Source: Magnetospirillum sp. WYHS-4 (GTDB lineage: Bacteria; Pseudomonadota; Alphaproteobacteria; Rhodospirillales; GLO-3). Taken from it: a stretch of DNA of 49,141 nt. The stretch is taken from assembly GCA_039908345.1 (NCBI GenBank), contig JAMOBD010000028.1, forward strand, positions 1 through 49,141. Direction: 5' to 3'. Position numbers and translations under genes: made by a program. Positions 42,598-49,141 of the stretch are shown here, one piece after another; the stretch's first letter is position 1, and the number at the start of each line of letters is the position of its first letter. The notes under the pieces are model-generated. The model did not search any database, was not told the origin of the DNA, and worked only from the letters and a program-made list of their open reading frames with translations.

Positions 42598-42880
42598 AAC
42601 GCCCGCCGCCGATCCAAGGCCCCTACCGGCTTTCCAGTCTGCGCCAGGCGAACGGCGGAGTAAAGGATTCAGGCCGGGATTCCGACGGGGGCCGCCGGAG
42701 CATTGCCCCGGCCCTTCTGCACGGAAGGTTTCCAGCACCTCCGAAGTGAAGGGCGCCTGAACATGGCCGCCACCCCACCCAGCGTGTCCGCAATCAGGCC
42801 ATACTGGACACCGTCAGAATGATGGTTTTTCGAGATGTCCAATTGACTGGTGGTGGATTTCTGCATCCAAGATCATCACC
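42598..42880. other. Intergenic region between the coiled-coil gene and the tracrRNA
   Basis: About 280 bases without a supported gene. A 65-codon minus-strand frame at 42669-42866 (starting MQKSTTSQLDISKNHH) was considered but shows weak codon bias and no recognisable family. The right part (42820-42880) is AT-richer than the surroundings. No promoter or repeat stands out. Confidence 0.4.
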
Positions 42881-42889
42881 ATGCGTAGC

Positions 42890-43004
42890 GCAAAACGAAC
42901 GAGGGCAGGCCGGAGCCTGCCCTCATCTTGTGCCTTTAAAAGGCTTGTTAACGGGTGGACCCCGGTTCCCTATCGGCTAAATAGATTGGAGCCACCTATC
43001 AAGG
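42890..43004 (-). ncRNA. Predicted tracrRNA of the type II-C CRISPR system
   Basis: Read on the minus strand, 42983-42947 is an anti-repeat. The 24 bases at 42956-42979 are identical (on the plus strand) to bases 9-32 of the CRISPR repeat as read on the minus strand, with mismatches and small bulges on both flanks. After the anti-repeat come a 5-bp hairpin (GCCTT/AAGGC, 42944-42932) and a strong terminator hairpin (42924-42901) with a TTTT tail. The order anti-repeat, short stem, terminator is that of tracrRNAs. The 5' end is estimated: a TTGCCA (43036-43031) and TATAGG (43017-43012) on the minus strand, 13 bases apart by this count, would give a start near 43004. Length about 115 nt. Confidence 0.82.
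42892..42924 (-). terminator. Rho-independent terminator of the tracrRNA
   Basis: Perfect 10-bp GC-rich stem (42915-42924 with 42901-42910), tetraloop TCCG on the minus strand, then GTTCGTTTT. Confidence 0.85.
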
Positions 43005-43062
43005 TCTCACCCTATAGGAAATGGTCTTCCTTGGCAATACACCATAGGATAGTCTCGCCATG

Positions 43063-43068
43063 TACAAT
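43063..43068 (+). promoter_or_regulatory. Candidate -10 element of cas9
   Basis: TACAAT lies 20 bases before the cas9 ATG, with TG directly ahead of it (not the exact TGn spacing of an extended -10). No convincing -35. The cas9 and tracrRNA promoters must share the 84-base interval 43005-43088, pointing in opposite directions. Confidence 0.3.
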
Positions 43069-43088
43069 CCATACTCGTGGGGGGAGTC

Positions 43089-46000
43089 ATGACCTATCGA
43101 CTCGGGATCGACGTGGGCAGCAAATCCATCGGTTGGTGTGTGCTGCGGCTGGGGGACGACGGGGAGCCGGATGCGCTCGCCGCCGCCGGGGCGCGCATCT
43201 TCGGCGACGGCCGCGACCCCAAGAAGGGCTCCTCGCTGGCCGAGGATCGCCGGCTGGCCCGCTCGGCCCGCAAGCGGCGCGACCGCTTCCTCAGGCGCCA
43301 GGCGGCCCTGATGGCCAAGCTCATCGCCTTCGGCCTGATGCCCGCCGAGGAAAAGCACCGCAAGGCGCTGGAAGCCCTGGACCCCTATTGCCTGCGCCGC
43401 CAGGGTCTGGACGAACTCCTGCCGCGTGCCCACCTGGGGCGGGCGCTTTTCCATATGAACCAGCGCCGGGGCTTCGCCAGCAACCGCAAGGTGGACAAGG
43501 GCGGCGACGACGACAAGGGCAAGATCCGCACGGCCACGCGCAAGCTGGAAGCGGCGATGAAAGATGCCGGTGCCCGCACCCTGGGCGAATACCTGGCCCT
43601 GCTGCACGCCCAGCGCCAGCCGGTGCGGGCGCGGCTTAGGGGCGAAGGCGCCAAGGCCGAATACGACCTCTACCCCACCCGCGAGATGACGGCGCGGGAA
43701 TTCGATCTTCTCTGGGAAACCCAGGCCCGCCTCGATCCCACCCTGCCCGGTGCGGCCCGTGACGTTCTGCGCGGCATCCTGCTGCACCAGCGGCCCTTGA
43801 AGCCGGTGCCGGTGGGGCGCTGCACCCTGGACCCCGGCAAGCCCTGCGCCTTCGATCCCGACAACCGGGATGGCCTGACTCCTGGAGAGGCGAAGCTCCG
43901 CCACGAGCGCGCGCCCTGGGCGCTGCCCATCGCCCAGCGTTTCCGCATCCTCAAGGAGCTGGCCAACCTGGAAATCCGCCTGCCCGGTCAGGCCTCCCGC
44001 CCCTTGACCGTGGCGCAGCGCGACCTGTTGCTGGGCAAGCTGCTGCGGGCCAAGGAGGTTTCCTTCGACGCCATCCGCAAGACCCTCAAGCTGGAGACGG
44101 ACTGGGAGTTCAACCTGGAACGGGTCGGCCGCAAGGGCCTGAAGGGCGACGAAACGGCGGCTCGCCTGGCTCACAAGGACGCCTTCGGCAAGGCCTGGCA
44201 TGACCTGCCGCCAGTCCGCCAGCACGCCATCGTCGAGCGCCTGCTGGCCGACGAGAACGAGGAAGACCTGATCCACTGGCTGGAAAGCGAGTGCGGCCTG
44301 GCGCCGGAAGCCGCCGAGAAGGTTTCCGATACGCTGCTGCCGGAACGCCACGTGCGCTTCGGCCGCTGTGTCCTGTCGCGGCTGGTGCCGGTCCTGGAAA
44401 GGGAAGCGGTGGAATGGACCGACACCGCCACCGGCGAGGTGCTGGCGGTGCCCGTCCGCGAGGACAAGGCCATCGCCCGCCTGGAACTGCACCACTCCGA
44501 TCGCCGGCCCAAGAACATTCTGCCGCGTCTGCCCTACTACGGCCAGGTGCTGGCCGAGGACTTGGCGGGCACCGGCGATCCTTCCGATGGCCCCGAACGG
44601 CGCTACGGCCGCTATCCCAATCCCACGGTGCATATCGGGCTGAACCAGTTGCGCCGGGTGGTGAACGCCGTCATCGACGCCAACGGGCCGCCGGCCCAGG
44701 TGGTGGTGGAACTGGCCCGCGAATTGAAGCTGAGCCGCGAGGAGCGCCGGAGGAAGGAGCAGGAGAACGCCGCCAACCGGGAGAAGAACGACGAACGCCG
44801 TCGGGAACTGCACGGCATGCAACTGGCGGACACCGGCGAGAACCGCCTCCGCCTCCGCCTGTGGGAGGAATTGAGCGCCGATCCCTTCAAGCGCCAATGC
44901 GTCTACTGCGGCAGGACCATCGGTTCCGCCGAACTGCTATCCGATGCGGTGGAGGTGGACCACATCCTGCCCTTCAGCCGCACCCTGGACAATTCGGCGG
45001 CCAACAAGACCGTGGTGCATCGCGCCTGCAATCGCGGCAAGACCAACGACTCCCCCTTCGAGGCCTTCGGCCACCAGCCCCACTGGCCCGATATCCTGGC
45101 CCGCGCCCAGACCTTGCCGGGCAACAAGCGCTGGCGCTTCGATCCCGACGCCATGGATCGCTTCGAGAACGAGGAACGGAATTTCCTGGACCGCCAGCTT
45201 CAGGACACCCAGTACCTGGCGCGGCTGTCGCGCCGTTACCTGGCCCATGTCTGCGATCCCAACCAGGTCTGGGTGGTGCCGGGACGGCTGACCGAGATGC
45301 TGCGTGGCAAATGGGGACTCAACGGCCTGCTGTCGGACAACGACCGGAAGAACCGCGACGACCACCGCCATCATGCCATCGATGCCTTCGTGGTGGCGCT
45401 CACCGACCGGAGCATGTTGCAGCGCATCGCCACCGCCGGCCATCCGGACGAACGGGGCCGCATCCTGTCCAACTTCCCGGAACCCTGGGACGGCTTCCGC
45501 GAGGACTTCCGCGCCGCGCTGGACCGGATGGTGGTGGCGCATCGGGCGGAACATGGCACCGGCGGCCGCCTGCACGAGGATACCGCCTATGGGCTGGTGC
45601 GCAAGCCCGAGGACTGGGACGGCTGCAACCTGGTCCGCCGCAAGCCGCTGGCGGGCCTGAGCGACAAGGAGATCGACCGCATCCGCGACAAGGAACTGCG
45701 GCAACGGATTCTCGATTGGGTGGCCGAGGAACGGCAAGCCGCGCCGGACAAGAAGCTCAAGCTGATCCTGTCCGCCTTCGCCGAAAAGACAGGCATCCGC
45801 CACATCCGCCTGCTGAAACCGGAAAAGGACGTGGTGCCGATCCTGAACCGTCAGGGCAAGGCCTACAAGGCGGTGATTCCCGGCGACAACCACCGCATCG
45901 AGATCTTCGCGAAGGCGGACGGCACCTGGGCCGGCGAGGCGGTGACGGTCTTTCAGGCCAACCAGAAGGACCATCGCCCGCGCTGGCGTACCGAGTTTCC

Positions 46001-46280
46001 CGGTGCCCGCTTGGTGATGGTGCTGCACAAGAAGGACTTCGTGGAAATCGACCACGACGGCAAGCGCCAAGTCATGCAGGTGGTGCAGTTGGCCCCTTCG
46101 GCGAACCGTGTTCATCTGGTTCCGCATAACGAAGGAGGCGCCCTGCAGGAACGCCACGACGATCCCGATGACTCTTTCCGCTGGCTGCTGGCGTCCTATT
46201 CCCGCCTCAAGGAAGGCAAGGCCCGCCGGGTGCGGGTGGATGCCCTGGGACGGATCTTCGCCGTTCCGCCTCCGAAGTGA
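43089..46280 (+). CDS. cas9: CRISPR-associated endonuclease Cas9 (type II-C)
   Basis: A 1063-residue RNA-guided DNA nuclease, in the compact range of type II-C (NmeCas9 1082). RuvC-I: RLGIDVGSKSIGW with D8. Arg-rich bridge helix: RRLARSARKRRDRFLRRQ (about 57-75). RuvC-II: VVVELARELK with E541. HNH: CVYCGRTIG, then VEVDHILPFSRTLDNS with catalytic H625, followed by HRACNRGK; the paired cysteines suggest a zinc site. RuvC-III: DDHRHHAIDAF with H762 and D765. The remaining approximately 270 residues form the wedge and PAM-interacting region. All catalytic residues are present. Start: ATG 43089 with GGGGGGAG upstream (a GTG at 43077 would add 4 residues). cas1 follows by 10 bases. Confidence 0.97.
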   Translation: MTYRLGIDVGSKSIGWCVLRLGDDGEPDALAAAGARIFGDGRDPKKGSSLAEDRRLARSARKRRDRFLRRQAALMAKLIAFGLMPAEEKHRKALEALDPYCLRRQGLDELLPRAHLGRALFHMNQRRGFASNRKVDKGGDDDKGKIRTATRKLEAAMKDAGARTLGEYLALLHAQRQPVRARLRGEGAKAEYDLYPTREMTAREFDLLWETQARLDPTLPGAARDVLRGILLHQRPLKPVPVGRCTLDPGKPCAFDPDNRDGLTPGEAKLRHERAPWALPIAQRFRILKELANLEIRLPGQASRPLTVAQRDLLLGKLLRAKEVSFDAIRKTLKLETDWEFNLERVGRKGLKGDETAARLAHKDAFGKAWHDLPPVRQHAIVERLLADENEEDLIHWLESECGLAPEAAEKVSDTLLPERHVRFGRCVLSRLVPVLEREAVEWTDTATGEVLAVPVREDKAIARLELHHSDRRPKNILPRLPYYGQVLAEDLAGTGDPSDGPERRYGRYPNPTVHIGLNQLRRVVNAVIDANGPPAQVVVELARELKLSREERRRKEQENAANREKNDERRRELHGMQLADTGENRLRLRLWEELSADPFKRQCVYCGRTIGSAELLSDAVEVDHILPFSRTLDNSAANKTVVHRACNRGKTNDSPFEAFGHQPHWPDILARAQTLPGNKRWRFDPDAMDRFENEERNFLDRQLQDTQYLARLSRRYLAHVCDPNQVWVVPGRLTEMLRGKWGLNGLLSDNDRKNRDDHRHHAIDAFVVALTDRSMLQRIATAGHPDERGRILSNFPEPWDGFREDFRAALDRMVVAHRAEHGTGGRLHEDTAYGLVRKPEDWDGCNLVRRKPLAGLSDKEIDRIRDKELRQRILDWVAEERQAAPDKKLKLILSAFAEKTGIRHIRLLKPEKDVVPILNRQGKAYKAVIPGDNHRIEIFAKADGTWAGEAVTVFQANQKDHRPRWRTEFPGARLVMVLHKKDFVEIDHDGKRQVMQVVQLAPSANRVHLVPHNEGGALQERHDDPDDSFRWLLASYSRLKEGKARRVRVDALGRIFAVPPPK

Positions 46281-46290
46281 GGCCCGTGCC

Positions 46291-47220
46291 ATGCCGGGGC
46301 GCTTCGTGGAAATCGCCGAGGACAACCGCCACCTGGCGGTGGAGCGGGGCTTCCTGGTGGTGACGGAGAAGGGCCGCGAACTGGGCCGGGTGCCCCTGGA
46401 CGACATCGCGGCCCTGATCGCCAACGCCCATGGCCTGACCTACAGCAACAACGCCCTGCTGGAACTGGCCCGTCGGGGGGCGCCGGTGGTGCTGTGCGGC
46501 CCCCACCACCGGCCCGAGGCCTTCCTGTGGCCGGTGGACGGCCATCATGTCCAGGCCGCCCGCATGGATGCCCAGATCGCCGCGCCCCAGCCCTTGCGCA
46601 AGCGCCTCTGGCAAGGGCTGGTCAAGGCCAAGGTCCAGATGCAGGGCGCCATCCTGGAAGCCCGGGGCCAGCCCGCCGGGGCCTTCGAGGCCTTGGCGCG
46701 GGAGGTGCGGTCCGGCGATCCCGACAACATCGAGGCCCAGGCGGCGCGGCGCTACTGGCCCCTGCTGATGGGGGCGGACTTCCGCCGCGACCCCCAGGGG
46801 AGCGAGATCAACGGCCTCCTGAACTACGGCTACACGGTGCTCCGGGCGGCCACGGCGCGGGCGGTGATGGGGGCGGGGCTGCATCCCACCCTGGGGCTGT
46901 TCCACAGCAACCGGGGCAATCCCATGCGGCTGGTGGACGACCTGATGGAGCCCTTCCGGCCCCTAGTGGACCTGGCGGTGGTGCGTTTGGCCGATGGCGG
47001 TCGGCGCGAGGTGGACCGCGACAGCAAGCGGATCTTGGCGGGACTGTCCTGGGCCGATCTGCCGACGGCGGAGGGCCGGACGCCCCTGGCGGCGTGCCTG
47101 GAACGGCTGGCCCTGTCGGTGGCGCGCTCCTTCGAGAGCGGCTCGCCCGAGCTTGACCTGCCGGACCCACCGCCGCCCCTGGACCTGGCGGCCTGGGGTG
47201 AGAGCAGGCCGGAGGCATGA
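46291..47220 (+). CDS. cas1: CRISPR-associated endonuclease Cas1 (type II)
   Basis: A 309-residue integrase of spacer acquisition. It has the N-terminal beta domain (FVEIAEDNRHLAVERGFLVV, then LGRVPLDDIAALIANAHGLTYSN), the helical domain with NIEAQAARRYWPLL (metal-binding Glu), the conserved His in GLHPTLGLFHSNRGNPM and the acidic pair in LVDDLMEPFRPLVD. ATG 46291 lies 10 bases after cas9, and the stop overlaps cas2 as ATGA. Confidence 0.96.
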   Translation: MPGRFVEIAEDNRHLAVERGFLVVTEKGRELGRVPLDDIAALIANAHGLTYSNNALLELARRGAPVVLCGPHHRPEAFLWPVDGHHVQAARMDAQIAAPQPLRKRLWQGLVKAKVQMQGAILEARGQPAGAFEALAREVRSGDPDNIEAQAARRYWPLLMGADFRRDPQGSEINGLLNYGYTVLRAATARAVMGAGLHPTLGLFHSNRGNPMRLVDDLMEPFRPLVDLAVVRLADGGRREVDRDSKRILAGLSWADLPTAEGRTPLAACLERLALSVARSFESGSPELDLPDPPPPLDLAAWGESRPEA

Positions 47221-47549
47221 CGGCTCTATCGGGATACCGCCTGATGTGGATGATGGTGTTGTTCGATCTGCCGGTGGGGACCCGCGAGGAACGGGGGCGG
47301 GCGACCCGTTTCCGCAATTTCCTGCTCGACCGGGGCTTCGAGATGAGCCAGTTTTCCGTCTATCTGCGTTTCTGTACCGGGCGGGAACAGGCGGAAACCC
47401 ACGTCAAGGCTATCGAGAAGTCCGTGCCCAAGGCGGGCAAGGTCAGCATCGTCTTCTTCACCGACAAGCAGTTCGAGCAAAGCATCTCCTTCGTCGGACG
47501 CGGTCGCGAAGCCAATCCGAAAAAACCCGAGCAACTGGCCCTGTTCTGA
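47217..47549 (+). CDS. cas2: CRISPR-associated endoribonuclease Cas2 (type II)
   Basis: A 110-residue ferredoxin-fold protein that pairs with Cas1. The first strand MWMMVLFDLPVGTREERGRA carries the conserved Asp in FDLP, followed by FRNFLLDRGFEMSQFSVYLR and GKVSIVFFTDKQFEQSISF. Type II Cas2 proteins commonly have this VLFDLPV...F.V..R pattern. It overlaps cas1 and ends 73 bases before the first repeat. No csn2 or cas4 follows, which supports type II-C. Confidence 0.95.
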   Translation: MTALSGYRLMWMMVLFDLPVGTREERGRATRFRNFLLDRGFEMSQFSVYLRFCTGREQAETHVKAIEKSVPKAGKVSIVFFTDKQFEQSISFVGRGREANPKKPEQLALF

Positions 47550-47622: not shown

Positions 47623-47692
47623 ATTGTAGCCGATAGGGAACCGGGGTCCAGCCGCAACTGTAGCCGATAGGGAACCGGGGTCCAGCCGCAAC
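47623..47692 (-). repeat. Two CRISPR repeats fused without a spacer
   Basis: The 36-base repeat at 47623-47658 is followed directly by a copy starting at its third base (47659-47692, 34 bases). No spacer lies between them. This is the cas2-proximal end, the 3' end of the predicted pre-crRNA. Confidence 0.9.
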
Positions 47693-49141
47693 CCGATAGC
47701 CCGATCTGGGCCAAGCCGGGCAAATTGTAGCCGATAGGGAACCGGGGTCCAGCCGCAACCGTACAGGTGCCTTCGCGTCTTCTCGTTGTATTGTAGCCGA
47801 TAGGGAACCGGGGTCCAGCCGCAACGGCAAGTCGGTCGGCCACATCTACCGCTGGATTGTAGCCGATAGGGAACCGGGGTCCAGCCGCAACATCACATGC
47901 GGTTGGCCACCAGGCCGGTTGATTGTAGCCGATAGGGAACCGGGGTCCAGCCGCAACGACCAGGGAAAGTGGGGTTCCGCCGCCGATATTGTAGCCGATA
48001 GGGAACCGGGGTCCAGCCGCAACCGGGATCATGCCGTCCATTTCCGTCCGGAATTGTAGCCGATAGGGAACCGGGGTCCAGCCGCAACGCGGACGTCCAC
48101 CGCCCGGCCGATGGCCGGATTGTAGCCGATAGGGAACCGGGGTCCAGCCGCAACTACCAGGGTACCGACCCATCATCCGCCTCCATTGTAGCCGATAGGG
48201 AACCGGGGTCCAGCCGCAACGATGGCTTTCGCCGCCGTCTTCACCGCGCCATTGTAGCCGATAGGGAACCGGGGTCCAGCCGCAACCCACAAACCCTTGG
48301 TGAACTGGTCAACCTTATTGTAGCCGATAGGGAACCGGGGTCCAGCCGCAACTTCCAGCGTGCGGTCTGGCGCCGATGGTGATTGTAGCCGATAGGGAAC
48401 CGGGGTCCAGCCGCAACCGGGAAGCCGATCAGGACATAACAGCGCAGATTGTAGCCGATAGGGAACCGGGGTCCAGCCGCAACATGGGTGCCGGCATCCC
48501 AACCGAACCGGGGATTGTAGCCGATAGGGAACCGGGGTCCAGCCGCAACTGCTTGCGGCCACGGCGGGGCGGCGGCCAATTGTAGCCGATAGGGAACCGG
48601 GGTCCAGCCGCAACGCTAGCCGTGGCCGCGCCCTGATCGCCGCTATTGTAGCCGATAGGGAACCGGGGTCCAGCCGCAACGTACTGCCGTCCACCCCGTC
48701 GCAGTGCAGCATTGTAGCCGATAGGGAACCGGGGTCCAGCCGCAACAAAACATCCCAGGTATCCCCAGGCGCCCATTGTAGCCGATAGGGAACCGGGGTC
48801 CAGCCGCAACGATCCGGGCGTCGCCGATCGCCGCGAGCGGATTGTAGCCGATAGGGAACCGGGGTCCAGCCGCAACGCCTGGGGGGACGGCCTTGTCGGC
48901 GTGATCATTGTAGCCGATAGGGAACCGGGGTCCAGCCGCAACTGTGCCAGACCGGACGAGGCGGCCCCATGGATTGTAGCCGATAGGGAACCGGGGTCCA
49001 GCCGCAACTTGACGCTAGTGCTGGTCACCGTGGTTTTGATTGTAGCCGATAGGGAACCGGGGTCCAGCCGCAACTCATTCATCGTCCCGATTTTGCTGTC
49101 CGGAAATTGTAGCCGATAGGGAACCGGGGTCCAGCCGCAAC
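47623..49141 (-). CRISPR. Type II-C CRISPR array, 24 repeats, open at the right edge
   Basis: Repeats of 36 bases (plus strand begins ATTGTAGCC, ends CAGCCGCAAC; minus strand begins GTTGCGGCTGG, ends GGCTACAAT) at about a 66-base pitch. Repeat starts: 47623, 47659 (34-base form), 47724, 47790, 47856, 47922, 47988, 48053, 48119, 48185, 48251, 48317, 48382, 48448, 48514, 48579, 48645, 48711, 48775, 48841, 48907, 48973, 49039 and 49106. All full copies appear identical. There are 22 spacers of 28-31 bases, mostly 30. The final repeat ends on the last base of the window, so the array may continue. The minus orientation is supported by the terminator at 47583-47610, the tracrRNA anti-repeat, and the GTTG...CTACAAT repeat form shared with Neisseria type II-C. 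Confidence 0.97.

Follow-up and report, generated by a model that had tools for sequence, protein, structure and literature searches.

A putative tracrRNA gene upstream of cas9 in a type II-C CRISPR–Cas locus of Magnetospirillum sp. WYHS-4

Why should a single copy of a CRISPR repeat core stand outside the array, immediately upstream of cas9? The question is raised by positions 42890–43004 of a 49,141-nucleotide contig of Magnetospirillum sp. WYHS-4 (the whole contig, C28 in our numbering, is referred to here as the window), which belongs to a 3.65 Mb genome assembly of 172 contigs. An earlier note, made from the letters alone, had read this region as a complete tracrRNA gene on the strand opposite cas9. 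We followed up that reading in the genome and in related loci of the same order, and it is now supported by four lines of evidence: because the element is unique in the genome, is found in relatives at the corresponding position and on the corresponding strand, co-evolves with its repeat and carries covarying hairpins, we regard it as very probably (about 95%) the gene for the tracrRNA that serves a type II-C CRISPR–Cas9 locus.

A compact type II locus with a split array

The element precedes a short set of genes that, on the plus strand, runs cas9, cas1, cas2 and then the array, with no gene between cas2 and the array:

43089..46280, plus strand: cas9, 1063 aa from ATG (TIGR01865, E 2.6e-163)
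46291..47220, plus strand: cas1 of type II (TIGR03639, E 5.2e-63; Cas1_II)
47217..47549, plus strand: cas2 of type II (TIGR01573, E 4.4e-17; Cas2_II)
47623..49141, where the contig ends: CRISPR array with its crRNA sense on the minus strand; of the 24 repeats, 23 have 36 nt and one has 34 nt

The cas9 reading frame is open, with no stops, and its product has the Pfam domains RuvC_III, HNH_4 and Cas9_a as well as RuvC-I, RuvC-II, HNH and RuvC-III motifs; its best PDB matches are mostly 1055–1154 aa long. The cas4 model TIGR00372 had no match in the genome and matched in 9 of 14 control genomes, and the csn2 model PF09711 found nothing either in the genome or in the controls (0/14).

Contig C3 terminates in 31 further intact repeats in crRNA sense, and the repeats of C28 and C3 are probably one array split by the assembly. 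At the cas2-proximal end, the two repeats at 47623–47692 abut with zero spacer, the one at 47659–47692 being the 34-nt repeat, which lacks the last two crRNA-sense bases. At the far end, a C3 repeat (L062:730-749, equal to G000:C3:102229-102248) is cut to its last 20 bases, and this truncation suggests that the array is oldest at its crRNA-sense 5' end and gains new spacers near cas2. The crRNA-sense repeat ends in TACAAT, an ending found among the repeats of 17 relatives (described below) in L069, L070 and L081 only. TACAAT resembles the −10 element of Neisseria repeats, which drive crRNAs from inside each repeat.

The two array parts gave no significant match when searched against phages, the only hits being two records of one Gordonia phage at E 0.1, so that this phage search offers no target evidence for the system in use. 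Against the rest of the window, the 51 spacers reach at most 16 matched bases.

Anatomy of the anti-repeat and its tail

Read 5' to 3' on the minus strand, the element comprises the following parts:

42980..42986, minus strand: 5' flank of the anti-repeat, AUCUAUU, probably the 5' part of the RNA
42956..42979, minus strand: core of the anti-repeat, whose 24 nt all complement positions 9–32 of the crRNA repeat
42946..42955, minus strand: putative lower-stem arm of the anti-repeat, CCCGUUAACA, from the duplex fold and a motif in relatives
42932..42944, minus strand: predicted nexus-like hairpin, the first to follow the duplex, with 5 bp (GCCUU-UUA-AAGGC, loop UUA), from fold and covariation
42901..42924, minus strand: predicted terminator-like hairpin, 10 G+C-rich pairs with loop UCCG, from fold and covariation

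The plus strand at 42956–42979 reads TGGACCCCGGTTCCCTATCGGCTA and is identical at 24/24 bases to positions 9–32 of the crRNA-sense repeat GTTGCGGCTGGACCCCGGTTCCCTATCGGCTACAAT, which makes the minus strand an anti-repeat; the exact 24-base copy described in the earlier note is indeed there. By simple arithmetic, the chance expectation for one given 24-mer on both strands of 3.65 Mb is ~3e-8. The repeat-like core stops ~110 bp short of cas9 on the plus strand, and the 5' flank of the anti-repeat has CTATTTAGCC in common with an aligned relative, G077.

Cofolding gives a repeat:anti-repeat duplex of −62.2 kcal/mol with a helix unbroken over 24 bp. The lower-stem arm, in which a conserved motif G(T/G)TAACA sits, pairs with the repeat 5' GUUGCGG via one C-C mismatch and one bulged U. 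The single flank mismatch that had been pointed out (G against the repeat's C at 42955) is correct and corresponds to this C-C mismatch; the central bulge that had been expected in the cofold is absent, with the mismatch and the bulged U by the lower stem found instead. Duplexes of repeat and tracrRNA are described as typically fully complementary in Cas9 clade X (PMC7606464), so a missing central bulge is not odd in itself.

The order 3' of the anti-repeat on the minus strand is GUUAACAAG, the 5-bp hairpin, the 10-bp G+C-rich hairpin and then GUUCGUUUU to ~42892, so that both hairpins of the first description, the second with its TTTT, lie where they had been placed. The 71-nt tail folds more stably than 200/200 shuffles (z −4.56), and RNAfold lengthens the second hairpin to 13 pairs. 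One mechanical open reading frame of at least 80 aa (42881–43639, plus strand) does overlap the element, and it has no Pfam match.

A promoter scan returned no sigma-70-like promoter above threshold for the minus-strand RNA, and the best promoter hexamer pair of the window was matched or bettered in 52% of shuffles; in several relatives, TTGACA-like elements precede the anti-repeat. The hairpin at 42901–42924 was left unscored by the terminator scan despite its TTTT, and the T-run after it is short. The RNA length of 88–115 nt is thus quoted as an estimate, with a 5' boundary between the anti-repeat edge at 42979 and the 43004 of the earlier note and a 3' end at ~42892. Rfam contains a tracrRNA family, and no match to it was found in the whole window at the gathering threshold or in 42800–43100 at E up to 5; the only rows returned liken the terminator-like hairpin to part of a Brucella sRNA, far under the threshold of that sRNA's family. 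The Rfam tracrRNA is a narrow sequence family, and a match to such a family does not define the RNA class.

Uniqueness, conservation and co-evolution

We searched the genome with a 23-nt core pattern allowing up to 3 mismatches and found 56 matches, all exact: the array on its two contigs accounts for 55, and the remaining one is the present element; the reversed pattern, used as a control, had zero. A covariance model of the 3' part of the tracrRNA, built from the window's own sequence and 13 relatives, has its sole genome match at 42892–42952 on the minus strand (E 1.8e-9). A better anti-repeat elsewhere, which the earlier note had named as what would speak against it, was sought across the 172-contig assembly, and none was found. 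These searches show one anti-repeat outside the array, near cas9 and complementary to the cognate repeat, as is characteristic of a tracrRNA gene.

To place the element among its relatives, we drew on a Cas9 search that, with the present genome counted, matched in 44 of the order's 297 genomes. From the 43 other Cas9-positive genomes, we took the 20 best-scoring (the short fragments G024 and G162 were skipped) and added L031, the one relative returned by a genome contig search, giving 21 relative loci; for Cas9, viral contigs yielded one weak match. An array was detected at 17/21 relative loci, and each of these 17 carries, 64–211 bp upstream of its cas9 match, a candidate anti-repeat encoded on the other strand from cas9. 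This candidate is the best match in 16/17, an unrelated place tying with it in L070 (score 15), and in both L069 and L070 the anti-repeat matches the repeat only partly (score 15). In these two loci (L069:11335-11396 and L070:3802-3863, with flanks), which come from related genomes, pairing with the repeat is poor over the anti-repeat's 5' part, whereas the 3' part has been retained together with the hairpins. The same RNA is also present at the four loci in which no array was detected: motif and hairpins occur in L064, L076 and L071 (in the last with a model E of 0.005 and a run of N within the cas9 start region), and L031 has a variant. Compared with G077, whose Cas9 is the closest among the relatives (54% identity), 62/85 tracr positions are identical, as are 27/95 just upstream and 66/135 downstream (forced alignment).

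If these elements act as tracrRNAs, each should pair best with the repeat of its own locus. We paired every repeat with every anti-repeat region across the window and the 17 array-bearing relatives (n=18), which come from related genomes and are not independent, although their repeats differ widely. Of the 18 anti-repeats, 17 pair best, or equal best, with the repeat of their own locus, and 16/18 repeats pair best with their own anti-repeat; the sum over own pairs is −882.7 kcal/mol compared to a permutation mean of −475.4 (sd 35.9), and 0/20,000 permutations reach it. The misses among the repeats fall inside the close pairs L069/L070, whose repeats are identical, and L073/L074; the miss among the anti-repeats is that of L074, with which the repeats of L073 and L078 pair better than its own. 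This pattern points to co-evolution of the anti-repeat with its own repeat, as expected of a tracrRNA.

The tail is conserved in structure as well. A motif G(T/G)TAACA(A/C)G follows the anti-repeat in 14/18 loci with an array (L072, L081, L082 and L083 are without it), and at three pairs of the first hairpin in those 14 loci, 42/42 cells pair, with several pair types, a count that leans toward the structure as the arms were set by eye. They were set in this way, and later fitted with a model, because the MAFFT alignment (A1) misplaces the first hairpin. In the resulting 22-locus model alignment (21 distinct rows), which is fitted to the model's structure and hence also leans toward it, 93.9% of 246 cells pair; in the same alignment, there are 67 double-change cells compared to 18.3 in shuffles (0/500 with as many), and pairing drops to 38–59% when the partners are slid out of register. 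Three of the 22 are weak model matches (L031, E 0.0072; L083, E 0.018; L082, E 0.34). These alignments indicate that both 3' stem-loops covary, as they would in a structured tracrRNA.

At E ≤0.001, the model matches in 25 of the order's 297 genomes, the present one among them. Of these 25 matches, 21 adjoin a cas9 match located on the other strand and a 22nd (G213) lies beside a cas9 start at a contig edge; in G121 the model match is near a contig end and the cas9 match is on another contig. Weak tracrRNA-like matches occur at G205:C252:6455-6516 (E 4e-4) and G259:C481:9972-10020 (E 9e-4), and the stretches fetched around them hold no cas9, cas1, cas2 or array; these are possibly chance matches or orphan tracrRNAs.

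Alternative readings and the place of the RNA among type II systems

An exact copy of the repeat core is also what a stray repeat would look like, left by recombination or by a lost mini-array and without tracrRNA function, and lone CRISPR repeats do occur. Such a relic would hardly be accompanied by what is seen here: where the repeats of relatives have diverged, the anti-repeats at this position have diverged to match them, the downstream hairpins covary, conservation against G077 is higher over the tracr positions than upstream of them, and the genome searches turned up no second anti-repeat. We therefore consider a relic extremely unlikely. The plus strand could likewise be the functional one, since it presents a repeat in crRNA sense that ends ~110 bp before cas9 and might, as a solo crRNA-like RNA of the scaRNA or mini-array kind near the cas9 promoter, guide regulation of cas9; Cas9 of N. 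meningitidis is reported to bind a scaRNA (PMC13431127). The arrangement of hairpins and a following T-run, however, agrees with the minus strand, and it is in the minus-strand sense that the RNA of the relatives was aligned. The 51 spacers have no long match in 42851–43100, the best being 9 nt inside the repeat-like core. To this reading we assign next to no weight.

A third possibility would extend the tracrRNA rather than replace it. A long form of tracrRNA (tracr-L) in a type II-A system of Streptococcus is reportedly a natural single guide acting on the cas9 promoter, and a 5'-extended form of the present RNA might similarly repress the adjacent cas9 promoter, which, if true, would bring autoregulation of the type II-A tracr-L kind to a type II-C system. 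With the 5' end extended to 43010, the upstream segment folds back in RNAfold onto the anti-repeat and the lower-stem arm as a guide-like hairpin, and among relatives L066 scores low against shuffles at all three lengths (14, 11 and 9 of 200) and L073 does so at 40 nt (0/200). In the window, by contrast, the natural upstream sequence does no better than shuffled ones (40 nt, z −1.16, 31/200; 80 nt, z −0.01; 150 nt, z 0.47), and guide-like pairing is inconsistent across the 17 relatives, which makes such an additional form very unlikely.

The layout that the tracrRNA reading implies is one that has already been published, as a prediction in Bordetella pseudohinzii and for EHCas9, and the present locus adds one more case. 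EHCas9 is a metagenomic type II-C protein of clade IX with 1070 aa and closest homologues in Alphaproteobacteria, and its predicted tracrRNA is described as having supported E. coli interference and, in single-guide form, in vitro cleavage (PMC10281378). Its locus resembles ours in the order cas9-cas1-cas2-array, the 36-bp repeats, the size of Cas9 (1070 compared to 1063 aa) and a ~100 bp tracrRNA upstream of cas9, inferred to be read in the array direction, with the anti-repeat followed by two presumed stem-loops (PMC10281378). The type II-C locus of Bordetella pseudohinzii likewise has a putative tracrRNA divergent upstream of cas9-cas1-cas2 and an array downstream (PMC4624362). The likeness drawn in both cases is one of layout, and both descriptions name a predicted promoter (PMC10281378, PMC4624362), whereas none is recognisable here. 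In type II-B and II-C, the reading direction of the array can oppose that of the cas operon, as here and in the type II-C system of Neisseria meningitidis, and the place and direction of the tracrRNA vary within these groups; by that description they differ within type II-C, the present RNA being upstream of cas9 on the other strand (PMC3936727). For Neisseria, a promoter inside each repeat has been described (PMC5006608).

By analogy with known type II systems, the locus would give a minus-strand RNA of ~88–115 nt, with its 5' end upstream of 42979 and its 3' end near 42892. The anti-repeat in it would pair with the repeat part of each crRNA, and processing, by RNase III or otherwise, would presumably follow. 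Cas9 would hold the GUUAACAAG (GUUAAC) segment, the nexus-like hairpin and the terminator hairpin, and the result would be a dual-RNA-guided nuclease that cleaves invading DNA.

The RNA proposed here is of the usual type in a known kind of place, and it leaves the knowledge of type II systems unchanged. For this organism, it would complete the parts list (Cas9, dual RNA, repeat and array) of a compact 1063-aa Cas9 system, which could then be tested as a guided nuclease, and the relatives define a common tracrRNA core.
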